Shown here one piece after another: positions 1,823 through 63,039 of a stretch of DNA of 64,000 bases (positions are counted from its first letter, which is position 1; each line of letters begins with the position of its first letter). The position numbers and the translations under genes were made by a program. Under the pieces are notes generated by a model that had not been told where the DNA came from, made no database searches, and saw only the letters and a program-made list of their open reading frames with translations. The stretch comes from Lichenibacterium dinghuense (GTDB lineage: Bacteria > Pseudomonadota > Alphaproteobacteria > Rhizobiales > Beijerinckiaceae), in the NCBI RefSeq assembly GCF_021730615.1, contig NZ_JAJLMN010000001.1:4989501-5053500 (forward strand). Direction: 5' to 3'.

Positions 1823-3139
1823 TCACGACTGGAGCACGTCCGCGAAGGCCCGGAACTGCGCCTCGCAATCGGCGAGGCCCGCGGGATCGCTCACCCCCTG
1901 ACGGGCTACCGCCATCGCGAGGTCGGCGTGGCGCCGTAGGGTGGCGCGCCGGTCGATGAGGCGCTCGACCTCAGCGACGCGGCAGAGCACTTCCAGGAGC
2001 CGGATCAGCACGTAGGCCGAGCCTGAGCCGTTCTGTCGGACCGTGTGGAACATGCCGTCGCAGAGCCCGTCGTAGCTCACCACGTCAAGCGTCAGCACGA
2101 CGCGGCCGTCGCGGTCCACGGCGCCCCGCGGCAGGTGGCGGGGCGCGATGCGGCACAGGGCGTCCCCGAAACGGTCGACCACGCTCCCCGCCGTGAACGG
2201 ATCGTTGATGCCCGGCGACAGCGCCCGTACGGCGATCTCGTTGAGCTGCCGCACCGGATATTCGAGGTCCTGCAAGGCGGCCTGCCGTCGGCCGAAGGTC
2301 ATCGCCTTGTCGAAGATGTCGCGCGCGTCGTCGACCGCCGCCGACACGGTCGCGATCGGTGCGCCGAGCGGAACGAAGGCGCCGGGGCGCACCCGCAGGA
2401 CGATCGTCACCCCGTGCTGGTGAGCCCAGTCGGCCAGGATCTCGCTGTCTACGGCCTGCAGGAAGCCGCTGCCCGACACCGTCACAGCCTCACCGGCCAA
2501 AGGCACGGCGGGTGGCATGAGGTCGGCGGCGTCGAGCGTCTTGCCCGCGATGGCCTCGACGAGGTCCTGGTGGACGACGTCCACCACCATCTCGACGTTG
2601 ATGGATGTCGCGATGTGGTGGACGTACCAGACCAGCGTGCCGATGCAGACCAGCGCCAGCGCCATGGCGCCAGTCACCCCGACATGGGGCACGAACTTGC
2701 CCTCATCAACTGTGCGCACCGTGCGCAGCACGGTCAGGGCATAGGCGAAGGTGCCGAGGAAGATGCCGAGGGCGACCTGGTTTCGCACGTCGCGCACGAA
2801 GTTGCGCAGCAGGCGCGGCCCCATCTGCCCCGATGCGAGGGATAGGGCCGCGATGGTGATGGAGAAGATCGTGCCCGCGACGCCGATGCTCGACGACGCC
2901 ACGGCCGACAACAGGCTGCGCGCTCCCTCGCCGCCGCCCGAGTAGCCCCAGGAGCCCGACGACGGATCTGAGCCAGCCGTGTCGTGATCGTACCAAGTGG
3001 CGAGGAGCGCCAAACCGACGCACAAAGCCACGACCAGCGCCGGCCGCAACCAGAACTGGTCGCCGAGGTCCTCGATCCAGGCGCGGACGCGCGTGTTGCT
3101 GCCGAAGTCGGCGATCCACGCCCGGAAACGGCCGATCAC
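1823..3139 (-). CDS. DUF2254 family membrane protein
   Basis: A 438-residue predicted membrane protein matching the DUF2254 pattern: two N-terminal hydrophobic segments, the SSSIGVAGTIFSITIAALSLASGQ stretch (start and centre of the signature), then further membrane segments and a soluble C-terminal half. Biochemical function is unknown; family members are often beside ion channels. The start is GTG at 3139. In the ancestral sequence (IS5 removed) this GTG overlaps the TGA of the upstream mscS gene as GTGA, so the two were translationally coupled. The IS5 insertion at 3179-4093 now separates them and probably changes expression of this gene. Confidence 0.85.
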   Translation of the reverse strand: MIGRFRAWIADFGSNTRVRAWIEDLGDQFWLRPALVVALCVGLALLATWYDHDTAGSDPSSGSWGYSGGGEGARSLLSAVASSSIGVAGTIFSITIAALSLASGQMGPRLLRNFVRDVRNQVALGIFLGTFAYALTVLRTVRTVDEGKFVPHVGVTGAMALALVCIGTLVWYVHHIATSINVEMVVDVVHQDLVEAIAGKTLDAADLMPPAVPLAGEAVTVSGSGFLQAVDSEILADWAHQHGVTIVLRVRPGAFVPLGAPIATVSAAVDDARDIFDKAMTFGRRQAALQDLEYPVRQLNEIAVRALSPGINDPFTAGSVVDRFGDALCRIAPRHLPRGAVDRDGRVVLTLDVVSYDGLCDGMFHTVRQNGSGSAYVLIRLLEVLCRVAEVERLIDRRATLRRHADLAMAVARQGVSDPAGLADCEAQFRAFADVLQS

Positions 3140-3178
3140 GACGATGGGCCCGCGGTATCGAAGGCGTCCCGCGCCTCA

Positions 3179-4093
3179 GAGTCCGTCCGGGAAGTCAGGC
3201 TGCGCAACCTATGCGACGTAGCAGCATCATGACGGACGCAGCGTAGAGGAAGGCCTTTGCGGATGCGATTGTGGCCTCCGGATCCTTCCAGAGGCGTCGA
3301 TTGCGGCTGATCCAGGCGAAGAAGCGCTCAACCACCCATCGCCGGGGGTGAACCACGAAGCCGACCTGCCCGGGTGGTTTGCGGACGATCTCGACGGCGA
3401 TGAGCGTGGCGCTGTCCGGCTTGTCGCCGGCGTAGCCCGCGTCGGCGAAGGCCTTGGCGATGAAAGGATATGAACGGCGTGACTGCTTGAGCACCGGCAC
3501 GGCCCCGTCGCGGTCCTGCACGTCGGCCGGCTGCGGGTCGAGCACCAGGGCGCGGCCGTCCGTGTCGACCAGGGCCTGGCGCTTGCGACCCTTCACCTTC
3601 TTGCCCGCGTCGTAGCCCCGCGGACCGCCGCTCTCCGTGGTCTTCACGCTCTGGCTGTCGAGCACGGCCGCGGTGGGCGAAGCCTCTCGCCCGGCCCGCT
3701 CGCGATCCAGCATGACGAGATGGTGGTTGATGCCGGCGAACAGGCCCTCATCGCGCCACGCGCTGAAGTAGCCGTACACCGTGCTCTTCGGGGGCAGGTC
3801 CTTCGGCAACAGGCGCCAGGGAACGCCGCCCCGCAGCACATAGAAAATGCCGTTCACAATCTCCCGCAACGACCACAGCCGGGGCCGTCCGAGCGGGTTG
3901 CCGGGCGGCAACAGCGGTTCGATGACGGCCCATTCGGCGTCGGTCAGATCGGTTGAGTAGCGGAGTTCGGAGCGGCTATGCTGCTCGCGGGTGGCCGGGG
4001 TCCACATGGCGGTTCCAGATCAGGTTTCAGCACCCTCCTGGAATCATCTCAGCCCCGGCCACTCAACCCCACGTGCCCTTATCGGACGGACAC
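3179..4093. mobile_element. IS5-family insertion sequence (IS1031-like), complete with target duplication
   Basis: A 915-bp element. The ends are imperfect inverted repeats: GAGTCCGTCCGGGAA at the left and, read inward from the right, GTGTCCGTCCGATAA. It is flanked by the 3-bp direct repeat TCA (3176-3178 and 4094-4096), as expected for the TNA target of IS1031-type members. It encodes one transposase. Removing the element and one TCA restores a continuous mscS reading frame into the DUF2254 start, so the insertion site is well supported. Confidence 0.9.
3195..4007 (-). CDS. IS5-family transposase
   Basis: A 270-residue DDE transposase in a single frame. The N-terminal part has the DUF4096-type segment (LTDAEWAVIEPLLPP near residue 22), the catalytic core shows LDSQSVKTTESGG (first Asp), DAGYAGDK (second Asp) and the RWVVERFFAWISRNRR signature near the C-terminus containing the catalytic Glu. 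The length is typical of a complete IS5 transposase and no frameshift is needed. The gene fills the IS5 element. Confidence 0.95.
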   Translation of the reverse strand: MWTPATREQHSRSELRYSTDLTDAEWAVIEPLLPPGNPLGRPRLWSLREIVNGIFYVLRGGVPWRLLPKDLPPKSTVYGYFSAWRDEGLFAGINHHLVMLDRERAGREASPTAAVLDSQSVKTTESGGPRGYDAGKKVKGRKRQALVDTDGRALVLDPQPADVQDRDGAVPVLKQSRRSYPFIAKAFADAGYAGDKPDSATLIAVEIVRKPPGQVGFVVHPRRWVVERFFAWISRNRRLWKDPEATIASAKAFLYAASVMMLLRRIGCAA

Positions 4094-9568: not shown

Positions 9569-9745
9569 TTATTCTTTCTTCCTCTGGTTCTTGGATTTGA
9601 TTGGTGAATTTCGCACTACGGGAGCTGAGCCGACTTTCTTCACCGCAGCCTCAAAGGCGTCCGGGGACTCGTCACAGCCGAGTTCGCGGGCGGCTTCGAT
9701 GAAGCGGGCGGATTGAGCTGCGGCATCCTCTCTCGGCTTCTTCAA
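9569..9745 (-). CDS. Small basic-ended hypothetical protein, third gene of passenger operon
   Basis: A 58-residue protein read from TTG 9745, which overlaps the stop of the DUF1828 gene as TTGA (9742-9745). The start of the protein reads KKPREDAAAQSARFIEAARE, an amphipathic helix, and it ends in a Lys/Arg-rich tail. A 94-bp upstream ATG at 9835 is also in frame but lies inside the DUF1828 gene. The tight overlap argues for translational coupling with the upstream gene. I do not recognise the family; an accessory or antitoxin-like role would be a guess. Confidence 0.6.
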   Translation of the reverse strand: MKKPREDAAAQSARFIEAARELGCDESPDAFEAAVKKVGSAPVVRNSPIKSKNQRKKE

Positions 9746-10506
9746 TTGAGCACCCTGTCTAAATGCGCTTGCGCTGTGGTAAACGGTATAATCGCACTTA
9801 CATCCTGTAAAAGTATGATGTCTCCAGATCGCCATTGATGGCGATCGTCATACACTGACAGGCGACGAACATCCCGAAGATTTTCATTCTTCTGAATATC
9901 ATAAAATGCACGGAATGGCGCGTTTACAGCTTTCTGCTCAGAAACAGTTTCTACAAACGCCTGCGGTGCAGTCTTATGCTCGTTAAGCAGAACAATCTTC
10001 ATTTTATATTCGATTCCGCTGTCTCCGAGCACACCATCATCTACTCTGACACGGTCCTCGCCGAGAGTTACCCGCATCAAGTGGGCGACTTCCTTCTTGA
10101 AGTCTGTCGTAACGATAGTTTTCTGGTCGGCTGATTGATCGCCAACAAGCTTGGATGCGTTCGCTACCATGACAACGCCGATGGCAGCCTTGGCTTTGGA
10201 GCACCGGAGCCACATACGATTCTGGGTGAACTCACAGCCGAAGATCATTGCACGTCGCGCGAGTTGAACACGCATCTTCTCACTGACACCTATCCCTGCT
10301 AATTCGATCTCCATTGCGCCAAAGCCGGCGTCGTGGATCAAGCAAGTGTCGCCTTCATCGACTACGACAACCGTCACACCGTTGCCGGACGGATAGATGA
10401 GGGGCATCTGCACCTCAACGCCAAGATTTGTTGTACGGGCGCAAATCAGGCTGCGGCTAGCCGCTTCGATCTCTCGCGGGTCGATGGGCGGTAGCGTGTT
10501 GCTCAT
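9742..10506 (-). CDS. DUF1828-like protein (transposon passenger)
   Basis: A 254-residue protein from ATG 10506, whose first bases overlap the stop of the upstream gene (ATGA, 10503-10506). The N-terminal domain has the DUF1828 pattern: VEVQMPLIYPSGNGVTVVVV, then DEGDTCLIHDAGFGAMEIE, a beta-rich unit ending in a small helix. The C-terminal half (IEYKMKIVLLNEHKTAPQAF onward) resembles the DUF1829-type partner segment. Function is unknown in this family; such genes occur in mobile and phage-linked regions. The gene is the middle member of a three-gene coupled operon. Confidence 0.6.
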   Translation of the reverse strand: MSNTLPPIDPREIEAASRSLICARTTNLGVEVQMPLIYPSGNGVTVVVVDEGDTCLIHDAGFGAMEIELAGIGVSEKMRVQLARRAMIFGCEFTQNRMWLRCSKAKAAIGVVMVANASKLVGDQSADQKTIVTTDFKKEVAHLMRVTLGEDRVRVDDGVLGDSGIEYKMKIVLLNEHKTAPQAFVETVSEQKAVNAPFRAFYDIQKNENLRDVRRLSVYDDRHQWRSGDIILLQDVSAIIPFTTAQAHLDRVLN

Positions 10507-49563: not shown

Positions 49564-49687
49564 TAATACGGCGGAATCAATCTTGATGAAGCGTCCCGCA
49601 GACTCGTCGGCCTGGACGGGCCTGATCCTCGCCCCTTGAAGTGGTCCGCCCTGAGGTATGGCTTTTGAGCCTGGGAGGACGGACGAT

Positions 49688-49963
49688 ATGGCGAAGCGGC
49701 ACAGGCCCGAGGAGATCATCACCAAGCTGCGTCAGGTTGACGTGCTGGTGTCGCAGGGGTCGAGCGTTGCGGACGCGGTCCGCAGCGTCGCTGTGACGGA
49801 GGTCACGTACTACCGTTGGCGGCAGGAGTACGGCGGGCTGAAGTCGGACCAGGTCAAGCGGATGAAGGATCTGGAGACCGAGAACAACCGGCTTCGCAAG
49901 GCGATCGCGGATCTGACGCTCGACAAGCTCATCTTGCAGGAGGCGTCCCGGGGAAACTTCTGA
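49688..49963 (+). CDS. IS3 transposase orfA (copy B)
   Basis: A 91-residue HTH_Tnp_1 protein: AKRHRPEEIITKLRQVDVLV and the zipper ETENNRLRKAIADLTLDKLI. Nearly the same as copy A. Confidence 0.92.
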   Translation: MAKRHRPEEIITKLRQVDVLVSQGSSVADAVRSVAVTEVTYYRWRQEYGGLKSDQVKRMKDLETENNRLRKAIADLTLDKLILQEASRGNF

Positions 49964-50868
49964 GCCCCGCGCGCCGTCGTCTGTGCGTCGGCCATGTTTG
50001 TGACGTGTTGGCTGTTTCCGAGCGCCGGGCCTGCCGCGCGCTCGGCCAGCATCGGTCGACGCACAGGAAGGTGCCGCGGGGCCGGGACGACGAGGAGGCC
50101 CTCACGGCCGATCTCGTCGAGTTGGCGCGACAGTATGGCCGCTACGGTTATCGCAAGATCTCGGCCCTGCTCCGCGGGGCCGGGTGGGTGGTCAACGACA
50201 AGCGCGTCGAGCGGATCTGGCGGCAGGAAGGGCTCAAGGTGCCGGCGCGCCAGCCCAAGCGCGGTCGTTTGTGGCTGAACGACGGCTCGTGCATCCGTCT
50301 GCGGCCGGAGCGCCGCAATCACGTCTGGGCCTATGACTTCGTCGAGGACCGCACGCATGACGGACGCAAGCTTCGCATGTTGAACGTCGTCGACGAGTAC
50401 ACGCACGAATGCCTGTCGATCCGAGTCAGCCGCAAGCTGAAAGCGACTGACGTCATCGACGTGCTGTCCGACCTGTTCATCCTGCGCGGTGTGCCGGAGC
50501 ACATCCGCTCCGACAACGAGCCGGAGTTCATCGCCGCGGCCGTACGAGATTGGATCAAGGCGGTCGGCGCGAAGACCGCCTACATCATGCCCGGTTCACC
50601 CTGGGGGAACGGTTCTGTCGAAAGCTTCAACGCCCGCTTCCGGGACGAGCTGCTCAACGGGGAGATCTTCCCCTCGCTCCGTGAAGCCGAGATCATCATC
50701 GAGAGCTGGCGACGACATCACAATGCGATCAGGCCTCATGCCTCGCTCGGATATCGGCCGCCGGCCCCGGAGGTGGTGGTGCCCACCTACGCCGCTTGGC
50801 CGGCTGCGCTAACCCGACCTGCTTCGCCGGCCAAGCTGCCCGTGGCGGAACGGCCCACGGCGCACTAA
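49960..50868 (+). CDS. IS3 transposase orfB (copy B)
   Basis: The -1 frame relative to orfA. rve core with VWAYDFVEDRTHDG, IRSDNEPEFIAA (the usual DNGPEF has Gly to Glu here) and GSVESFNARFRDELL. The substitution next to the second Asp may reduce activity; copy A has the normal residue. Confidence 0.9.
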   Translation: MSPARRRLCVGHVCDVLAVSERRACRALGQHRSTHRKVPRGRDDEEALTADLVELARQYGRYGYRKISALLRGAGWVVNDKRVERIWRQEGLKVPARQPKRGRLWLNDGSCIRLRPERRNHVWAYDFVEDRTHDGRKLRMLNVVDEYTHECLSIRVSRKLKATDVIDVLSDLFILRGVPEHIRSDNEPEFIAAAVRDWIKAVGAKTAYIMPGSPWGNGSVESFNARFRDELLNGEIFPSLREAEIIIESWRRHHNAIRPHASLGYRPPAPEVVVPTYAAWPAALTRPASPAKLPVAERPTAH

Positions 50869-50902: not shown

Positions 50903-52009
50903 ATCGTGGTGCACCTGTGCACCTACGCGCCGACCGGGGCGCTCGTGGCGGCCCCGACGACATCGCTGCCCGAGCGCGTGCCCGGCACCTACAACTACGA
51001 CTACCGCTACTGCTGGATCCGCGATGGGTCGCTCACGGTCAGCCTGCTGGCGCAGCTCGGCGACGCTCGGCCCGTGTCGCGCTTCCTCGACTTCGTGGCA
51101 GCCCGTCTCCGGCCCGAGACGGACGACAAATCGAAGCTGCCGCTCCAGGTGCTCTACCGCATCGACGGGGGCGCCAAGACGTCGAAGGACGAGCGGTCCG
51201 ACATCTCAGGCTACCGCGACTGCCAGCCGGTGCAGATGGGTAACGCCGTCTACCAGATGCACGAGATCGACGGCTTCGGCTTCCTCGCCGACTGCATCCA
51301 CGGCTTCGTCGAGGCCGGGGGCGCGTTGGAGGACCGGCACTGGGAGGTGATGCGACGCCTGGCCGACTTCATCGCCCAGAACTGGGCCGAGAAGGACGCC
51401 GGCACCTGGGAACTGATGCCCTCGCAGGACTTCACCGCCACCAAGGTGATGAATTGGGTGGCGCTCGACCGAGCGATCGCGGTGGCGGAACGGACCGGCC
51501 GTCAGGCGCCGGCCCGGTGGGCGCAGTCGCGCGACCGGGTCCGCGCAGACGTGCTGGAGCACGGCTGGAGCGAGAAGGCCGGCGCCTTCCGCCAGCGCTA
51601 CGGCAGCGACGCCCTGGACGGCACCGCCCTGCTGATCCCGCTGATGGGCTTCCTGCCGCCCGACGACCCGAAGGTGCGGGCCACGGTGGAGCGCGTCGAA
51701 AAGGTGCTGAAGCTTAACGGCCTCGTCCACCGCTTCGTCCCGGAGGAGACGCCCGGCCGCCCGGATCAGCCCATGGGCGACCGCGAGGGCGCGTTCCTAA
51801 TGTGCACCATGTGGCTCGCGGAGGCGTGGCAGATGTTGGGCGAGCCCGAGAAGGCGAAGCGGGCGCTGGAGCACGCCGAGGCCTGCCGCGGCACGAACCG
51901 GCTGTTCTCCGAAGCCGGCGACGCACGCCAGTCGCCAAGTCTGCTCGGCAACATGCCCCTGCTCTTCACCGAGGCGGCCTATGCGCGCGCCGCCATGGCC
52001 GTCGGGTAA
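50903..52009 (+). CDS. Glycoside hydrolase family 15 (glucoamylase/trehalase-like), N-terminus lost to IS3
   Basis: The (alpha/alpha)6 catalytic barrel is present from LCTYAPTGALVAAPTTSLPE, with NYDYRYCWIRDGSL, the hallmark acid region, and TWELMPSQDFTATKVMNWVA then ALLIPLMGFLPPDDPKVRAT. Intact family members have some 200 or more residues before this point (a beta-sandwich domain); here the frame begins at the IS3 edge. The ATG at 50906 might still start translation of an incomplete enzyme. Annotate as partial. Confidence 0.85.
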   Translation: MVVHLCTYAPTGALVAAPTTSLPERVPGTYNYDYRYCWIRDGSLTVSLLAQLGDARPVSRFLDFVAARLRPETDDKSKLPLQVLYRIDGGAKTSKDERSDISGYRDCQPVQMGNAVYQMHEIDGFGFLADCIHGFVEAGGALEDRHWEVMRRLADFIAQNWAEKDAGTWELMPSQDFTATKVMNWVALDRAIAVAERTGRQAPARWAQSRDRVRADVLEHGWSEKAGAFRQRYGSDALDGTALLIPLMGFLPPDDPKVRATVERVEKVLKLNGLVHRFVPEETPGRPDQPMGDREGAFLMCTMWLAEAWQMLGEPEKAKRALEHAEACRGTNRLFSEAGDARQSPSLLGNMPLLFTEAAYARAAMAVG

Positions 52010-52636: not shown

Positions 52637-53416
52637 TCACCGCATGTGGACCCTCACGGCCGACGCGATCTCCGCCAGCGCTTTCTCGAGGACGGGATCG
52701 CCCAAGGTCAGGTGGTCGGCGAAGGCGTCCGCGAACGCATACAAGTCGAGTCGCGCCTTCATCTCGGGGCTCGTCTCGATCAGGGCCAAAGTCACTCCTC
52801 GAATCGACAGATAGACCTCGCGCGTCGCCCCCCCCTGCTGACTGGGCGCGGGGAGGACGCATGCCACCCCGTCACTCCAGTGCGGCGCCAGGAAGTCTAA
52901 AAGGGCCGCCTCCGGGTCGGCGTAGCCCAGAACTCCGAAGAGCCCGACACCGTGAAGCAGCTTCCGCGGCCCCGACGCGACGCGGCGGATCGGGCGTCCC
53001 AGGAGGATCAGGTCGGCCATGGGCGACACGGGCCCGGTTTCCTCTTCCGTCATCGGGACGTCCTCGCAGAGCCGTCCGAGGCGGCGTTCGGCAAAGGGCG
53101 TGCCGCCCAGCCCGACGAGCACGCCGATTGCGGCGCCGGCGACCAGCGCATCCTCCGTCGCAGCCGTCAGCTCCCCACGCGGGAGCTTCCGTCGACGGTC
53201 GTCGACGATGACGGCGAGAGCGTCCGCGACCGCCTTGGTCGCCTGCCGATCGAACGTCCCGGCGTCGACCCGGACGGCGACGCGAACCATGGCCTTTCCG
53301 GCCTGGCGGTGGACCGCGGCGACGGCTGCATCGTCGCGCTCGTCCAAGCCGCGGAATAACGTGTCGAGGAGACGTTCCGTCCAGGACCCGTGATGCATTT
53401 TTTGACTATATTCCAT
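52637..53416 (-). CDS. Hypothetical protein (259 residues)
   Basis: From ATG 53416 (a later Met lies six codons in). A helical N-terminal half (RLLDTLFRGLDERDDAAVAA; KAVADALAVIVDDRRRKLPR) contains a Gly-rich segment AGAAIGVLVGLGGTPFAERR; the second half (PLAD-like SPMADLILLGRPIRRVASGP, YLSIRGVTLALIETSPEMKA) is mixed alpha/beta. I do not recognise it. The next gene on the same strand is the DarT-like one 250 bp upstream, so they may be functionally linked. Confidence 0.6.
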   Translation of the reverse strand: MEYSQKMHHGSWTERLLDTLFRGLDERDDAAVAAVHRQAGKAMVRVAVRVDAGTFDRQATKAVADALAVIVDDRRRKLPRGELTAATEDALVAGAAIGVLVGLGGTPFAERRLGRLCEDVPMTEEETGPVSPMADLILLGRPIRRVASGPRKLLHGVGLFGVLGYADPEAALLDFLAPHWSDGVACVLPAPSQQGGATREVYLSIRGVTLALIETSPEMKARLDLYAFADAFADHLTLGDPVLEKALAEIASAVRVHMR

Positions 53417-53667: not shown

Positions 53668-54318
53668 TCACCAGAGCAGGTCGGGCAGCGCCTCCACCCG
53701 CGTCGCCGGGAGCTGCGCCCGCACCTTGGCGGCGGTCGCCGCGTCCTTGCAGACCACCGCCGCTGCCAGAGAGGTCGGCACGGGTCCCCATACGAGCGCG
53801 CCTGCGTCGTAGCGGAACACCTCCTCGGGATCCTCGGCGGCGGCGCGCAGGTTCCGGGTCCGGATCCGCGCCCACGCGGCCGTACCGAGCAGGTCGCGGT
53901 CACCGCTGAAGTTCGCCTCGGCGCGGGTGCACATCCGATCGACGTATACAGTCGGTCGCCCGAGGGCACGGAGCGCCTCGTGGGAGATGCAGACGGCCAC
54001 GACGTCGCGACGCTCGACCCGTGCCGCGCCCGGGTGCGCGGTGACGGAGGCGAACGCGGGCCGGGTGCATGGCGTCACGTCGAAAACCACGAACTCCCCC
54101 ACCCGGCCCGTCCAGGGGACTGGCAGGGGCTGTGCCGCCCGACGCGAGTTGAAGCGATCGATGCCGATCGCGACGAGGTCGCGACCCGCGACCGTCTCCC
54201 CGAACGGCCACAGGTAATTTTCGCGCATCATAGCGATGGCAGCCTCAACGTGCAGGCATAGGTAGAGGATCGACGCGTCTGGGTTGATTTCCTTGTAGGA
54301 TTTTGGAATGTCGAGCAT
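53668..54318 (-). CDS. DarT-like (DUF4433) ADP-ribosyltransferase-fold protein, catalytic Glu apparently replaced
   Basis: A 216-residue protein from ATG 54318. Its order follows DarT, the ssDNA thymidine ADP-ribosyltransferase toxin: an N-terminal strand/helix (SILYLCLHVEAAIAMMREN), IGIDRFNSRRAAQPLPVPWT then GRVGEFVVFDVTPCTRPAF (compare the DYVPFYFxPRSPML block), VYVDRMCTRAEANF and the terminal AGALVWGPVP (compare AEFLVxxxxPW). By this alignment the catalytic Glu is Gly173. It may be an inactive relative or use another residue. No macrodomain (DarG) antitoxin is nearby. The homology is by eye and moderate. Confidence 0.5.
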   Translation of the reverse strand: MLDIPKSYKEINPDASILYLCLHVEAAIAMMRENYLWPFGETVAGRDLVAIGIDRFNSRRAAQPLPVPWTGRVGEFVVFDVTPCTRPAFASVTAHPGAARVERRDVVAVCISHEALRALGRPTVYVDRMCTRAEANFSGDRDLLGTAAWARIRTRNLRAAAEDPEEVFRYDAGALVWGPVPTSLAAAVVCKDAATAAKVRAQLPATRVEALPDLLW

Positions 54319-55218
54319 GGCGATCACGAGCGCTGGTCGGCCACGAGGGCGACGCGAGGGGCTGTTGGGAGCGCGAGCGGACGGGGCTATGGCACTAGGG
54401 CGATGGCGTGCTGCCTCTCGCGAAGGCGCTTGCCGGCTAGGCGTCCTGAACTGAAGCTGCCCCAGACGGCATCTGGTCGTCAAGTGCTACCATCTCCTAT
54501 GACTCTTTTGAGTGACCGAACGTCCGCAATGGGCGCCAAGCCGGCATGCGCCCGGCGCCATGTCGGGCCAGTTGTTGAAGGCGGGTAGATCGGGGAACCG
54601 CCGTCGCGCGATCGAGGCGCAGGGTTGATCGGCCACGCGAACGCCGGTGAGCGGCGGCCGGGGTGACAGACCGGCGAGGCACCAGTGCCGACCTTGCCGC
54701 CTGGAGTGCCAGCGGCTCAATGCATCAGGAACTCGCCGCCCAGCGGTACGGCACCCGCAGACGGGGCCGCGGTCGTCCCCTCCGTCACGGGCCACATGCT
54801 GGTCACGACGGCCGCGGCTGACCCGACGTCGATCTAGCGCCGGTCAATCCTCGTCACCGCCAAAGGCCGGGGCGCCGCCGCTTCGTCGCCGGACTGACCG
54901 ACGCGTTGTTCACCGCGCGGGAGCCGCGAGAACCGGGGCCTGCCGCCACACGGCCGTGCACCGGCGGCTGGACAGCCGAGGCCGCCTCCGCCACTCCCTG
55001 TGAGGACGCGATCATCCACCTCGTAACGCTAGACGCACCGCTCAGATGGGCGCGATCCGTGGGGTGCAGGGCCTCCACGAGGTGCCGCGCTCGGCTGTCG
55101 ACGCCCACCGTCGGCTACTCGGCCTCTACCCAGCATTCAGGCCGTCGCTGGACCGCCCTACACTGCGAATCCGTGTACATCCCTCTGATGGACACGCCCC
55201 GGTCGATGCACCCTGGAC
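54319..55218. other. Intergenic stretch, no convincing gene
   Basis: Only short mutually overlapping frames on both strands, none with recognisable domains. The stretch is GC-rich. I see no periodic repeat here, unlike the array at 56.3 kb. Confidence 0.5.
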
Positions 55219-55743
55219 CTACCGAGGAGTCGCAGGGATCGACGCGGAAGCTCTCGCGGCCTCAGCGGCCCGGCGCTCCCGGTGACCATCGGGCCAGCAG
55301 GGCTCCAGTCGATGGTCCATCGACGCCCGCCGCCTCAGCGCCGCGCAAGCGGCCCGCACGACCCGCTCCTGGACCGCGATCCGCCCCACGGCGGCGCACC
55401 CTCGCGCAGTCGCCAAGTCGACGTCACCGATCGATGGCCGTTGTCTTGGCTCCGGCGTCCAATCGCCGAAAGCGGAAGCCGACGCGCGCTCCGCTATTGC
55501 CCACACCAATCCACCATCGTCAAGTTCTGCGTTGACGCGCTCACAAATATTGACGATGACTTTCAGCATCTGCGGGAAGAGAGTCTGCTGGTCGATGAGC
55601 CCATCGCGATGCAGGTCTCTGATTATGTCTTCAATGTACTTGCGATCGGCGTTGAACACATACGCCTCTCCGTCGGCCAATCGTCGCATTCGACTTAGTC
55701 GGAATTGATGGGCAAGCTGAAGACGCCTATGGCTGCGAAGCAT
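55219..55743 (-). CDS. Hypothetical protein, second gene of array-side operon
   Basis: ATG 55743 lies 17 bp inside the end of the upstream gene. The first 100 residues look like a real helical domain (RMRRLADGEAYVFNADRKYI; DIIRDLHRDGLIDQQTLFPQ; LKVIVNICERVNAELDDGGL). The rest, ending at 55219, is Arg/Ala-rich and may be a low-quality tail. No family recognised. It is expressed away from the array. Confidence 0.55.
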   Translation of the reverse strand: MLRSHRRLQLAHQFRLSRMRRLADGEAYVFNADRKYIEDIIRDLHRDGLIDQQTLFPQMLKVIVNICERVNAELDDGGLVWAIAERASASAFGDWTPEPRQRPSIGDVDLATARGCAAVGRIAVQERVVRAACAALRRRASMDHRLEPCWPDGHRERRAAEAARASASIPATPR

Positions 55744-56245
55744 CTGACAAGCCTCCCTTGGCGAGGTCGGCTGCGAGCCGCCGAGCTGCCGCTACGTTCG
55801 GTTGGAATTGCGGTCGCAGTGGTCCCGCCGCCAGCATGGATCGGCGCATGACTTCCCAGAGCACGGTGTAGAAGCTTCTCTCAATCAGGAGATGGTACAC
55901 GGCCGCAGCGTGCGTCGCGATCTGGGCGTCGCGACGGCCCTGGTATGATTTCCCGTTCAAGAGCGTGGCGGCGAGCTCCAGGCCGAGCCTTCGACCGGGA
56001 TCAATGAGCCGATTGATCTCCGCATCGAAGAACTCCACGAGCTCTCGCTCGAATGCATCCAGTAGTCCGCACGAGTGCTCATCCAGAAGGCCGGCCTGCT
56101 CGGCCTCGGCTAGATCGACGCGGAGCTCAGGCACCACTCGCTCCAGCCTGGATTTCTCGCACGAATGCGTAGCTAGATCGGCTCGTCTGCGGCGCGCGGC
56201 CTCTCGGTCCGCCACCCGGCGATAGGAGTTCCTTATCTGATCCAT
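55727..56245 (-). CDS. Hypothetical helical protein, first gene of array-side operon
   Basis: A 172-residue protein whose ATG at 56245 lies directly beside the 19-bp array. Charged N-terminus (RNSYRRVADREAARRRRADL) and helical body (LLDAFERELVEFFDAEINRL; HAAAVYHLLIERSFYTVLWE; AARRLAADLAKGGL). I do not recognise it; four-helix-type architecture is likely. Divergent from the AAA/ExoVII operon, with which it shares the 1.36-kb upstream region. Confidence 0.6.
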   Translation of the reverse strand: MDQIRNSYRRVADREAARRRRADLATHSCEKSRLERVVPELRVDLAEAEQAGLLDEHSCGLLDAFERELVEFFDAEINRLIDPGRRLGLELAATLLNGKSYQGRRDAQIATHAAAVYHLLIERSFYTVLWEVMRRSMLAAGPLRPQFQPNVAAARRLAADLAKGGLSDASQP

Positions 56246-56281: not shown

Positions 56282-56774
56282 GTAGGGGGATACACCGTCT
56301 GTCGTCCTGCGAAAGTCGGCACCTCGCAATCGAGTGCCGTTCACGCGACAAGACCCACCCCTGCGCACCGGCGTCGCGATCGAGGCAGATGGGCGTCCTC
56401 TCGACAGAGGATCGGCTCCGCGACTTGGACGAGTTCGCGCGATCGCCGGCCATTCCCGCAAACGAGGGTCGATCCCGGGGTGGGATGGCGTACCCGCAAC
56501 CCTGCGCCGCTTTCCCGACCCGGTGCCGGTCTCGCAACTGAGACCTGTCCTCACGATCCTTGTCAGTCCTCCCGACCGACGGTCGTCCACGTGATGGAAG
56601 GTGGCACCTGCGGTGCAGAGCCGTTCTCGCGATGCACGCCTGTTCCCGCGACGCACGCCCGTTCACGAAATGCAGGGTCGTTCCCGCGACGCACGCCTGT
56701 TCACGAAATGCAGGGTCGTTCCCGCGACGATAGGACGTCCACGGGATCGTGCAGCGATTCCCCGCACATCCCTC
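56282..56774. repeat. Array of degenerate 19-bp tandem units (semi-conserved head, variable tail)
   Basis: From 56395 to 56774 there are 20 units with exact 19-bp spacing; five more (56282-56376) and one of 18 bp precede them, with ragged hints back to 56250. Head consensus is GTYCNCGCGAY, for example GTTCCCGCGACGCACGCCT, GTTCACGAAATGCAGGGTC, GTCCTCACGATCCTTGTCA, GTACCCGCAACCCTGCGCC. The last 8 bases vary. Two 38-bp pairs (56642-56717) are near-identical, showing local duplication. Since 19 is not a multiple of three it is not a repeated peptide. No cas gene is near and the units are too short for CRISPR. It may be a protein-binding array, a processed RNA or an origin-type iteron set. Confidence 0.85.
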
Positions 56775-57093
56775 TCTGGAAGCGCCACCCGGCCTCTTCC
56801 AGAGAGCCTCGCGAGGTGATCCGCTCAGTCCAACAGGGAATCGCCGTCCAACGCGGAGTGAAGCCCAGGTTCACGGGACGAATTCGTCGGCATGGGCGCC
56901 GACGCCGTCCAAGCTCGCTGGACCAGCCGACGGATAGGCTTCCAGCTCCTTGTTCTGCCGTGACATTCTCTCATCCCGGCACTTCACAGCTGGCCTCAGC
57001 CACGCGGCCCGCCAATGACGCCAAAGAGTTCGACATCCACGATGTCATCGGCATATGGCCTCCTATCGAGGCGCAGGTTTCTGAAGGCACGAT
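56775..57093. other. Non-coding stretch between array and hairpin
   Basis: Contains a lone array-like head at 56869 (GTTCACGGGACGAATTCGT) and fading periodicity, otherwise nothing recognised. Small frames here have no family likeness. Confidence 0.5.
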
Positions 57094-57143
57094 ACCTCAT
57101 CTCGGGATGCAGGCCGGGGCGGCCAGCATCCTCGAGATGAGGT
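57094..57143. other. Long inverted repeat (strong hairpin) upstream of the AAA/ExoVII operon
   Basis: Left arm 57094-57110 (ACCTCATCTCGGGATGC) pairs with right arm 57126-57143 (GCATCCTCGAGATGAGGT) with one bulged base; the 15-base loop holds GGCC-GGGGC-GGCC, which extends the stem. No T-run follows, so it is not a plain terminator. Confidence 0.8.
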
Positions 57144-57605: not shown

Positions 57606-58691
57606 ATGCAGGACGAAGACTACAGCGCGGCCAACCAAGGCAGCCGCGAGGACGACCAGACTATCGGAATTTTGGATGAGATGCCGGGGCTGCATCTCAT
57701 GAGCCGCTGCGATCTCGAGGCGGCGGTCGGCGGCATGTCAGTGGATGGCGACTGGGAGGATGCGGGTGCGACATCGCGTGAGGACGCCGAGCGCAAACGT
57801 GCGCTCGCGCGATTTCTCGACGATCCCGATCTGACTTGGCGGCGGCATGTCATCGCTGATGACGCCCTTGTAGCTCGTCTCGCCCGCCTCGCCGGCGAGG
57901 CCCCGAATATGGCCCGGGCCGTCGAGGTCGTGCGTCGTGCCGCGGTGGTATCGCGCCACGCACGACGGCCGCTGCGCGTGCCTCCCATCGTCCTCGTCGG
58001 CCCACCAGGCTGCGGCAAAACGAGGTATGCCAGCTTGCTGTCTAAAGCTCTCGGCGTGACCTCGACGACAGTCGTAGGCAGCACGATAACCGACATGGGA
58101 AAGATAATCGGCTATCACCCAAGCTGGAAAGGCGCCGGACCGGGGCTCGTCGCCAAATCTTTACTAGCATGCCCAACAACTTCTCCGATTGTAATTTTCG
58201 ACGAAGCTGAGAAGATCCAGGCGATCGACAGCCTGCCATCTCCGCTCGACACCCTCCTGACCGCGCTGGAGCCCGACACGGCCTGCAGTTACCAGGACGG
58301 TTACTATGAACTGCCGATGTACGCGGCAGGCATCGTGTGGATCTTCTGCGTCAACGACCTACATGGCCTTTCCGCCCCTCTGCTTGACCGCTGCGTAGTG
58401 GTGGAGGTCGCAGCGCTGTCTGGGGCGGAGCGGCATCGGACCCTCGACGATCTCGCTGCCGATATCCTGCTCGACCACAGTGTGGTCCCGGCCGGGCTCG
58501 ACGAGGACGCTCTGGCGGTGCTGGACGGCGTGGGGCTACGCCGCGCTCGAACGCTCATCGTGTCCGCCCTCGCAGGCGCGCTCGAGGCCGGCCGCGACAC
58601 CCTCACGGCCGAGGACCTCCGCGCCGCCGCGGCCCTGCTCGGCGGCGGGGCGCCCCGCCTCCGGCAACAAGCCGGTTTCGTCCACTTCTGA
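57606..58691 (+). CDS. Lon-type AAA ATPase without protease domain
   Basis: A 361-residue ATPase, ATG 57606 behind GGGAGCGAGAC. Walker A GPPGCGKT (132-139), then GSTITDMGKIIGYHPSWKGA (compare the Lon pore region), Walker B VIFDEAEK (196-203), PLDTLLTALEPDTACSYQDG, sensor FCVNDLHGL and arginine-finger LLDRCVVVEV. These match the Lon AAA module in order; the N-terminal LON and C-terminal Ser/Lys protease domains are missing. Likely a remodelling motor or switch. It heads the operon with the ExoVII-like genes. Confidence 0.85.
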   Translation: MQDEDYSAANQGSREDDQTIGILDEMPGLHLMSRCDLEAAVGGMSVDGDWEDAGATSREDAERKRALARFLDDPDLTWRRHVIADDALVARLARLAGEAPNMARAVEVVRRAAVVSRHARRPLRVPPIVLVGPPGCGKTRYASLLSKALGVTSTTVVGSTITDMGKIIGYHPSWKGAGPGLVAKSLLACPTTSPIVIFDEAEKIQAIDSLPSPLDTLLTALEPDTACSYQDGYYELPMYAAGIVWIFCVNDLHGLSAPLLDRCVVVEVAALSGAERHRTLDDLAADILLDHSVVPAGLDEDALAVLDGVGLRRARTLIVSALAGALEAGRDTLTAEDLRAAAALLGGGAPRLRQQAGFVHF

Positions 58692-60158: not shown

Positions 60159-60980
60159 ATGGAACATAAGATGAACATGACCGAACCAAGGCTGAGCGGG
60201 GCGGCCGCCGCGGCGGTGGCGCTGCTGGCGGGGCTCGGCGCCGCGGAGCGGCGCGCAGCGCTGGAGGCGCTCGGCATGACCGAGGCTCGCCGCATCTGGA
60301 CGCCGAGGGCGCCGGGCGAGCTGCCGACCCTGACGGCACTCGCGGCAGGGCGCGACCAAGACGCGGTGTACGGGTCGGCCGCTTGGGCCGCGTCGTATCG
60401 TCGGGAGCGAACCGTGGTCGTCTACGTACTGCAGGCGCCTGGGCTCGGCGCGCTGTCGGCGAGCCTCGGAGGCCTCAGTTTGGCCAAGGTCGGCACCGCT
60501 GCGATTGAGAACCTCGCGCAACGCGTCGCTGAGCTCGGGCGGTGCGGGTACGGCGCCTGGGTGCGCGGTCCGCGTCGCTACGAGCGCGAGGCCGGGTTCG
60601 ATTTATTCGTCCCGCCGCCACGGTTGCAACTCGCGCCGCAGCACCCGGCCAGCCCGTTGCGCCTCTGCCTGCATGGGATCGAGGTGGACCTGCCGTCCGC
60701 TCTGTCACCCGAGCAGTTCGAGGCGGCGCTCAACCGTGCGCTGCTACCGCTTCGGCTGCAAACCGTGGCCGGTACGGAGGCTGGGCACGCGGTCTGCGCC
60801 CGCGCCGGCGTCGATACCGCGACCCTGCACCGCTTTTACCGGCATGGCCCGCGGATCAAGGCGGCGACTGAGATTGCCCTCCTTCGGCCCCAGGCCGACA
60901 TCGGTGCCCTCGCCCGGCTCTGTGCCGATATCGTGATCGATACCGTGATGGGGCTGTTGCAGAAGCGACCCCTCCGGTGA
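60159..60980 (+). CDS. Hypothetical protein (273 residues), partner of the XseA-like gene
   Basis: ATG 60159 behind GGGAGGAGACAAGC. Middle part is alpha/beta (RTVVVYVLQAPGLGALSASL; GGLSLAKVGTAAIENLAQRV; RYEREAGFDLFVPPPRLQLA; LCLHGIEVDLPSALSPEQFE), and the C-terminal part is helical (HRFYRHGPRIKAATEIALLR). I do not recognise it. Its stop overlaps the XseA-like GTG at 60977, so the two products are likely made together. Confidence 0.65.
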   Translation: MEHKMNMTEPRLSGAAAAAVALLAGLGAAERRAALEALGMTEARRIWTPRAPGELPTLTALAAGRDQDAVYGSAAWAASYRRERTVVVYVLQAPGLGALSASLGGLSLAKVGTAAIENLAQRVAELGRCGYGAWVRGPRRYEREAGFDLFVPPPRLQLAPQHPASPLRLCLHGIEVDLPSALSPEQFEAALNRALLPLRLQTVAGTEAGHAVCARAGVDTATLHRFYRHGPRIKAATEIALLRPQADIGALARLCADIVIDTVMGLLQKRPLR

Positions 60981-62791
60981 GCGCGGTCGATGAGCGCATC
61001 GAGCAGGCGGGGCAAGGACCCGCGCCGGCGTCTCGTGCAGCGCCGAAGCGGACCGACAGCATGGCTTCGTCAAGCCCAGATCCGGATGCCGCGATCCCGC
61101 TCGGACATCTGCTGCAGCGTGCGTCTCACGCCGTGGCGGTCGGCCTGCCGGACGCTGTCTGGGTCGTGGCGGCCGTCGCGGCGGTCAAGCCGGCGCGCGG
61201 CGGCCACTCCGTCGAGGTCGTCGAGCCGGACGTGTCCCGAGCCGTGGCGGGCCTGCTGAGGACCTATCTGCCGGACGGCGTGATCGAGAAACTGCGGCGG
61301 GGCACCGAACTGCCGATCGCCGCCGCGGACCTCGTCGGCATGACGATCGTCGTCCGCGTCGCGGTCGAACTGCATCCGCGGTGGGGGCTGTCGGGGCGCA
61401 TCCTCACCCTCGGGCCTGGGCTCGAGGAGTCTTTGGCCAAGCGGGCGCTGGACGCCACGGTCGCCCGACTTCGGCGCGATGGCCTGTTCGACCGTCAGCG
61501 ACTGCTGCCGGCGCCGCGCGACGTGACACGCGTGACGGTGGTGCATCCGCCCGCCGCGGCAGGGTGGGCCGACATCGCCCGGGAGCTCTCGCGCTGGATG
61601 GAGATTGGGCTCATCACGATGCGGTCCATACCGGTCCCTTTCGAGGGACAGGGGGCCGCAGCCGGGATCGCGGCCGCAGTTGCACGCGCCACGGCGGCCG
61701 TCGATGGCGCGAAGCCCGATCTCGTGCTGCTGTGCCGAGGCGGGGGGGCGGCTGCATCGTTGGGCTCGCTGGACGACGAGGCACTGGCTCGGGCCATCGC
61801 CACCGCTCCCGTGCCGGTCGTCACCGGTCTTGGACACGCATCGGACGGAAAGACGCTGGCCGACATGGTCTCGGCGCATCCCGTGGACACGCCGAGCAAG
61901 GCCCTATCCCTGGTTCGGGACCTGATTGTCACTCCAGCGCGGCGAGCACGGGCCGACCATGCCGCGATCCTGGCGGCCGTGTCGACCGCCGTCGAACGTC
62001 CTGCGCCGAGGCTCGCGGCGCTGGAACGGCTCGCCACGGCCGAAGCGCTGCGGCAGGTCGAGGCGACGTCGCAACGGCTCGATCGCTGCTGGGGCGCGGT
62101 GCGCGAGGCGGCCGAAGGTACCCGCGGGCGGCTGACCCGCGTCGACGACGGTCTCGACCGCATGGCGGCCGAGATTATGAGGACGTCGCCGTCGCTCGTC
62201 GCCCGGACGGCGTCGGAGCTTGCCACGCTGATGGAGGCGATCCGGGCCCGTGCCCGACGGCTTGGCGAGGGGGCGGACGACGGCGCCCGTCATATCGCCG
62301 TCGCGGCGGGTCGGGCGGCGTCGCTCGTCGACACGGCGGACGTCGAAGTTGCGACACTCGCCAGGACGGCCGGGATGGCGGCCGCCGCCCATCTCGATCG
62401 CCTCGTCGCAGAGCTGGACGGGCTCGCCCGATCGGTGCGCGAGCGCGGCCAGCAGCACGTCACCCGGGCCGACGACGGAGCTGCCGTTCTCGGCGGCATC
62501 GAGGCCTCTGTCGCCGGAACGCTCCGCGCTCAGGATGGCGCCGTCGCGCGGCTGCGCGAGACGATCGAGACCGCCGTCGACCGGCATGTCGATGCGGCCG
62601 GGGCTGCCCTGGACCATGCCCTGGCGACGCTCGACGGCGCCGACCCGGTCCGGGTCCTGCGCCTCGGCTACGCGCTGGTGATGGACGGCCAGGGCCGTGT
62701 TGTCACCTCGGTCGCGGCCGCCCAGGCGGCCTCGACCCTGATCCTCACCTTCGCGGACGGCACGATCGCCGTCCGACCCACCCAACCCTGA
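60977..62791 (+). CDS. Exonuclease VII large subunit-like nuclease (divergent XseA)
   Basis: A 604-residue protein. The N-terminal 40-160 region corresponds to the OB-fold (WVVAAVAAVKPARGGHSVEV, WGLSGRILTLGPGLEESLAK); the catalytic part follows XseA order: DGLFDRQRLLPAP, PPAAAGWADI (Asp199), CRGGGAAASLGSLDDEALAR (Arg254) and GLGHASDGKTLADMVSAHPV (His287, Asp290), then DTPSKA. Residues 310-570 are a long coiled coil, ending LRLGYALVMDGQGRVVTS, the XseA terminal strand block. All residues I can equate with the active site are kept. Canonical XseA is about 450-530 residues; the surplus is in the coiled coil. ExoVII trims single-stranded DNA from both ends. Confidence 0.88.
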   Translation: MSAVDERIEQAGQGPAPASRAAPKRTDSMASSSPDPDAAIPLGHLLQRASHAVAVGLPDAVWVVAAVAAVKPARGGHSVEVVEPDVSRAVAGLLRTYLPDGVIEKLRRGTELPIAAADLVGMTIVVRVAVELHPRWGLSGRILTLGPGLEESLAKRALDATVARLRRDGLFDRQRLLPAPRDVTRVTVVHPPAAAGWADIARELSRWMEIGLITMRSIPVPFEGQGAAAGIAAAVARATAAVDGAKPDLVLLCRGGGAAASLGSLDDEALARAIATAPVPVVTGLGHASDGKTLADMVSAHPVDTPSKALSLVRDLIVTPARRARADHAAILAAVSTAVERPAPRLAALERLATAEALRQVEATSQRLDRCWGAVREAAEGTRGRLTRVDDGLDRMAAEIMRTSPSLVARTASELATLMEAIRARARRLGEGADDGARHIAVAAGRAASLVDTADVEVATLARTAGMAAAAHLDRLVAELDGLARSVRERGQQHVTRADDGAAVLGGIEASVAGTLRAQDGAVARLRETIETAVDRHVDAAGAALDHALATLDGADPVRVLRLGYALVMDGQGRVVTSVAAAQAASTLILTFADGTIAVRPTQP

Positions 62792-62811
62792 CCCAGCAAC
62801 GGAGAACCACC

Positions 62812-63039
62812 ATGAAGCCCAACGCTCCCGCCAGCACCGAAACCTACGCGAGCGCGTATACCCGCCTCGCCTCCATCGCCGAAAAGCTCAGGAGCACCGG
62901 CGCCACGGCCAACCTCGACAGCATCGTCGACGACCTTCGGGCCGCCCGCGCCGCTCATGCCATCTGTAAGGCGCGGCTCGACGCCATCCGCCGCGAGGTC
63001 GACGCCGAGGTCGAAGCTGCCGGCGAGGTCGCGCAGTGA
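62812..63039 (+). CDS. Exonuclease VII small subunit-like protein (XseB-like)
   Basis: A 75-residue helical protein 20 bp after the XseA-like gene, GGAGAACCACC upstream. SAYTRLASIAEKLRSTGATA, NLDSIVDDLRAARAAHAICK and ARLDAIRREVDAEVEAAG match the XseB pattern (helix, charged turn, helix with CxARLDxxxxxV). The order large then small subunit in one operon supports a real ExoVII pair. Confidence 0.8.
   Translation: MKPNAPASTETYASAYTRLASIAEKLRSTGATANLDSIVDDLRAARAAHAICKARLDAIRREVDAEVEAAGEVAQ

Follow-up and report, generated by a model that had tools for sequence, protein, structure and literature searches.

The window analysed here, a 64,000-nucleotide stretch of the Lichenibacterium dinghuense genome, contains a tandem array built on a 19-bp unit. 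The array lies upstream of two short genes, P2 and P1, which are read away from it. The first-pass annotation described a divergent pair directly beside the array. This is inexact: P2 and P1 are co-directional, both on the minus strand, and the divergence is between this pair and a plus-strand operon to the right. The array starts roughly 150 bp upstream of the pair. The features of the locus are as follows.

55219–55743, minus strand: P1, an orphan helical protein of 174 aa, overlapping P2 by 17 bp in the same operon.
55727–56245, minus strand: P2, an orphan helical protein of ~172 aa; the array begins ~150 bp upstream of its start codon.
56282–56394, plus strand: left margin between the array and the P2 start, with isolated heads, e.g. 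GTTCACGCGAC at 56339, and no 19-bp periodicity.
56395–56774, plus strand: 19-bp tandem array of ~20 units, each with the head GTTCNCGCGAY and a variable tail of 8 bp; its last unit, at 56756, is degraded.
56642–56717, plus strand: near-exact duplication of 38 bp, in which two units were copied together, at the most uniform end of the array.
56772–56806, no strand assigned: at the right edge of the array, a perfect inverted repeat with 11-bp arms, CTCTCTGGAAG and CTTCCAGAGAG, around a 13-nt loop.
57606–58691, plus strand: Lon-like AAA ATPase lacking a protease domain, first gene of the right-hand operon; context, probably with no functional link to the array.
60977–63039, plus strand: exonuclease VII-like genes, large subunit (60977–62791) and small subunit (62818–63039); context.

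The periodicity of the array is real. Printed in 19-bp steps, the units from 56395 to 56756 line up without one indel. The lag-19 identity of 56395–56774 is 0.515, while the best lag between 10 and 60 in 2000 dinucleotide shuffles is 0.377. This is the comparison with shuffled DNA that had been asked for in the first-pass annotation, and it bears out the 20 consecutive units of exactly 19 bp proposed there. With the duplicated right end removed, the identity falls to 0.478 but stays above the shuffle maximum of 0.411. Across the 20 kb surrounding the array only lag 19 and its multiples stand out, with other lags nowhere near. Period 38 is likewise strong within the array because of the 38-bp duplication. 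Heads scoring at least 6/10 fall 19 times into one register and 6 times into all remaining registers combined, and all share one orientation except for one weak minus-strand match. An earlier estimate of about 26 units, counted from 56282, is too high. The left part (56282–56394) contains only scattered single heads, the one at 56339 being 1 base off the array register, and its lag-19 identity of 0.277 is lower than the best lag in every shuffle. The array therefore has about 20 units.

Each unit is divided into a conserved and a variable part. The consensus of the 18 distinct units is GTTCCCGCGAC GGAGGGCC, with 10.0 bits of information in the first 11 columns (head) and 1.4 bits in the last 8 (tail). 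The conserved columns form a contiguous block (column permutation, p 0.003; p 0.002 for the 13 left units alone). Pairwise identity of the tails is 0.36, close to the 0.28–0.29 expected by chance, and 8–9 positions vary per unit. The array was thus rightly described as having a fixed head and a variable tail, and as something other than an ordinary perfect satellite.

Units become more uniform towards the right end of the array (trend p 0.07). The tail GCACGCC is common to the units at 56623, 56642 and 56680, and the neighbouring units at 56661 and 56699 share another. These shared tails, together with the 38-bp duplication, show that the array grew by ordinary tandem duplication and not by spacer capture; acquisition of fresh variable segments is not seen. 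The inverted repeat at the right edge has no T-run and is therefore not a classical terminator. A second perfect inverted repeat with 11-bp arms (ACCTCATCTCG/CGAGATGAGGT, loop of 28 nt) is present at 57094–57143, within the 830 bp of non-coding DNA that precede the AAA gene.

Two frames are free of stop codons across the array, one of them the frame of P2. Their GC contents by codon position are 0.65/0.71/0.62 and 0.63/0.71/0.63, in contrast to 0.72/0.47/0.71 for P2, and are also unlike those of the P1, AAA and exonuclease genes. We therefore reject the array as coding sequence in the P2 frame despite its openness, in agreement with the first-pass annotation. P2 and P1 themselves look like genuine genes. 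Pfam, PHROGs, PADLOC and NCBIfam contain no family that matches either of them, PDB sequences give no significant match, plasmids and viral contigs give none at all, and no DNA-binding domain is recognisable in either. A search of 397 genomes of the order gave no convincing relative of P2, and one of the genus none of P1; between the two themselves no relationship is detectable. Matches to P2 in family f28, at 33–39% identity over ~75 residues of large frames (E ~5e-4), have the appearance of coiled-coil noise, and an Rfam match at 55390–55501 (RF02741) is far under its gathering score and falls inside P1. Single-sequence structure models of the two proteins are too poor for use (pLDDT 53 and 47).

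The array is present in one genome only among those searched. A 57-position sequence model finds the array locus alone in its own genome, with neither a second array nor a paired head elsewhere. The model returns chance-level matches only over 298 genomes of the family, and one significant match over 398 genomes of the phylum, in a distant genome (G1288). A two-head pattern with one mismatch allowed matches 1 of 385 genomes of the class, namely its own. In viral contigs the strict pattern is absent and the loose pattern yields two isolated pairs; the array was not found there.

The plus-strand operon begins 830 bp to the right of the array and also holds several unknown genes. It recurs in relatives and once more in the same genome (L019, 9085–15467, AAA 75% identical), always without the array, which is also absent at the copy in the genus (L018) and at L020–L024. 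Of 296 family genomes, 24 encode relatives of 60156, a 274-aa unknown protein of the operon, and some of them (G005, G289, G304) encode several. In 20 neighbourhoods of these relatives (L082–L101, up to 20 kb each) no 19-bp array was found, and the 19-bp signals in L090 (the best) and elsewhere are coding, inside a reading frame, or background. In total, 27 related AAA, 60156 or exonuclease neighbourhoods, including the copy in the same genome, are without it. By the comparison with homologous operons that the first-pass annotation had itself proposed, the implied link between the array and the exonuclease operon therefore fails, while the array itself is unaffected. Relatives of the AAA protein are common on plasmids. 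Adjoining the related AAA gene in L090 (2201–7998) we also observe a gene that resembles exonuclease I by eye (2201–3607), and four paralogous proteins of ~320–385 aa in a row, with 22–36% identity to the first.

Several kinds of repeat are similar in layout. CRISPR arrays differ in having repeats of ~24–48 bp, spacers of similar size and cas genes; with a 19-bp unit and no cas family among the scanned neighbours, the array is not CRISPR, as was already noted. TIGR arrays come closer in geometry. The arrays of tasA and tasParB consist of 10-nt repeats and 9-nt spacers (PMC12045711), which add up to the 19-bp step, and like them our array is non-coding and has many units. A 38-nt period is present, and there is an inverted repeat at the 3' edge. 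An array of this type would give rise to dual-spacer guides for a Nop-domain protein. The alternation of two distinct 8–12-nt repeats, edge and loop, is, however, missing: outside the 38-bp duplication, head identity is 0.587 between units one apart and 0.591 between units two apart. The Nop family (PF01798) stays below the Pfam cut-off genome-wide, with a best E of 0.3, a cut-off that a divergent Tas domain could escape, and the neighbours match no Pfam Nop model. The tails are copied between neighbouring units, and the heads are less well conserved than the repeats of described TIGR arrays. With the alternation and Nop tests failed we reject this identity, and consider a TIGR-Tas-type guide array highly improbable. 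We consider it very unlikely that the array is an RNA made of successive small hairpins, with GNRA-like loops, that serves as a binding sponge or as a leader of P2-P1. G-N-R-A occupies head positions 7–10 in 13 of 19 units, folding within units is slightly above that of tail-permuted units (p 0.02–0.04), and perfect arms of at least 5 bp are found in 5 of 20 units against a background of 9%. The fold of the whole array is nevertheless at shuffle level on both strands (z −0.43 and −0.05). Several units have no fold, hairpin centres vary between units, and the opposite strand has a similarly weak excess. The p of ~0.03 is driven by a few units, and the hairpin array is rejected. The suggestion that the array encodes an RNA processed to short pieces is thus left with no structure beyond shuffles, weak hairpins, no alternation and no Nop protein.

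The main rival is a decaying minisatellite without function, that is, an accidental tandem expansion that drifts while its units turn over at the right end. We regard this as a serious possibility, although on balance it is improbable. Minisatellites and VNTRs also grow by tandem duplication and have one uniform and one degenerate end, as the array does, and the 38-bp duplication and shared tails are what ordinary slippage or unequal exchange produces. The restriction of the array to one genome and the lack of relatives of its associated genes fit as well. Neutral decay should, however, hit head and tail alike, whereas the contrast between them is sharp (p 0.003), with 11 of 19 positions conserved. 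It should also bring indels, whereas the step is exactly 19 over 20 units. If the heads are not bound by P1 or P2, the locus would be a degenerate minisatellite that mimics an RNA-guide array of 10-nt repeats and 9-nt spacers, a caution for TIGR-like searches that rely on geometry alone. The array could also have originated from a CGTC-type REP palindrome, one arm of which expanded in tandem and later degenerated. CGTC-tagged REPs form a known superfamily (PMC3733652), and their arm GTCGTCCCCGCG resembles the head. Such elements are intact palindromes with a CGTC tag that occur in many copies per genome. In G1288, a distant genome of the same phylum, GTCCCCGCGACCCACCGTC is repeated in exact 19-bp copies directly next to an intact REP-like palindrome, GTCGTCCCCGCGCAGGCGGGGACC (L103, ~9780–9850). 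The tandem has the head and period of our array, and the palindrome arm is identical to the copies, which shows that a REP arm can give rise to 19-bp tandems carrying this head. On the other hand, the array contains no palindrome, no such palindrome is present in the window or in ten related neighbourhoods fetched (two from the same genome), and the tails vary here while the copies in G1288 are exact. We consider this origin unlikely. Considered separately, the stretch of L103 at ~9680–9850, where REP-like palindromes GTCGTCCCCGCGCAGGCGGGGACC lie beside 19-bp arm copies, may represent a birth stage of such arrays.

The reading we favour, tentatively and at somewhat less than an even chance, is that of a lineage-specific row of directly repeated, iteron- or centromere-like protein-binding sites upstream of P2/P1 and belonging to their cassette. 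Taken together, a row of such sites or a remnant of one is probable. The favoured reading is supported by the conservation of the head alone, by the indel-free spacing over 20 units and by tails near background, as well as by the single orientation of a non-coding array upstream of an operon with a coding signature. About 20 direct sites with the core GTTCNCGCGAY at a fixed 19-bp step would then act in cis upstream of the P2-P1 operon. The heads would be bound cooperatively by a protein that recognises their sequence; P2 or P1 may be that protein, or a host factor. The head-bound protein may form a filament or a loop that controls the P2-P1 cassette. Alternatively, the bound array may serve the cassette as a partition or replication site, in the manner of plasmid iterons or parC centromeres.

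Known systems agree with these putative binding sites in unit size. Iterons are 17–22 bp long and measure 19 bp in the plasmids F and P1 (PMC4980987), while parC direct repeats are 10–20 bp long (PMC9426499); a 19-bp unit therefore suits such sites. Like the iterons of F, P1 and RK2 (17 bp), the array consists of short direct units in one orientation, but iterons number 2–7 per origin compared to 20 here. The array is also chromosomal. Its step does not equal an integral number of helical turns, which counts against the binding reading. Cooperativity of Rep at iterons is lost once sites are shifted by half a turn (PMC4980987). As in centromeres of the parC/parS type, the repeats are direct and lie in the region that controls a small operon; the array differs in its greater length, a more degenerate head and the absence of a motor gene or RHH adaptor nearby. 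The ten neighbouring proteins scanned include no recognisable Rep, ParA or ParR, and neither ParM nor an RHH protein was found among them. The absence of a recognisable DNA-binding domain in P1 and P2, of a second array in this genome and of the array in any relative searched also argues against binding. The binding array or iteron-like origin proposed earlier hence remains compatible with the data as the best reading, though without such a partner among the scanned neighbours. If P1 or P2 binds the heads, the orphan proteins would gain a function, and this defence island would hold a centromere- or iteron-like array of unusual length with proteins of an unknown kind as its partners. It is quite unlikely that the array and P2-P1 constitute an undescribed island-borne cassette, in which the helical proteins would read or polymerise on the 19-bp ruler, for partition, silencing or defence control, or process a transcript into guides. 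None of the observations marks the array as a novel kind of system.

The surroundings of the array are a defence-rich genomic island. A DarT-like ADP-ribosyltransferase is encoded at 53668–54483 on the minus strand (Pfam E 1e-9, PADLOC 3e-16); the adjacent gene (52637–53416) has no family match. Just right of the window, on the minus strand, MkoA- and MkoB-like genes (L055, 2370–7375; PADLOC E 2e-184 and 5e-86) form a predicted Mokosh-type defence system, judging by their profile matches, and are followed by a tyrosine integrase (L055, 7902–8573). On the left, a glycoside hydrolase family 15 gene (50906–52009) lacks the first 14 profile positions. It is immediately preceded by an IS3-type transposase (49658–50868), the insertion of which has possibly cut it short.
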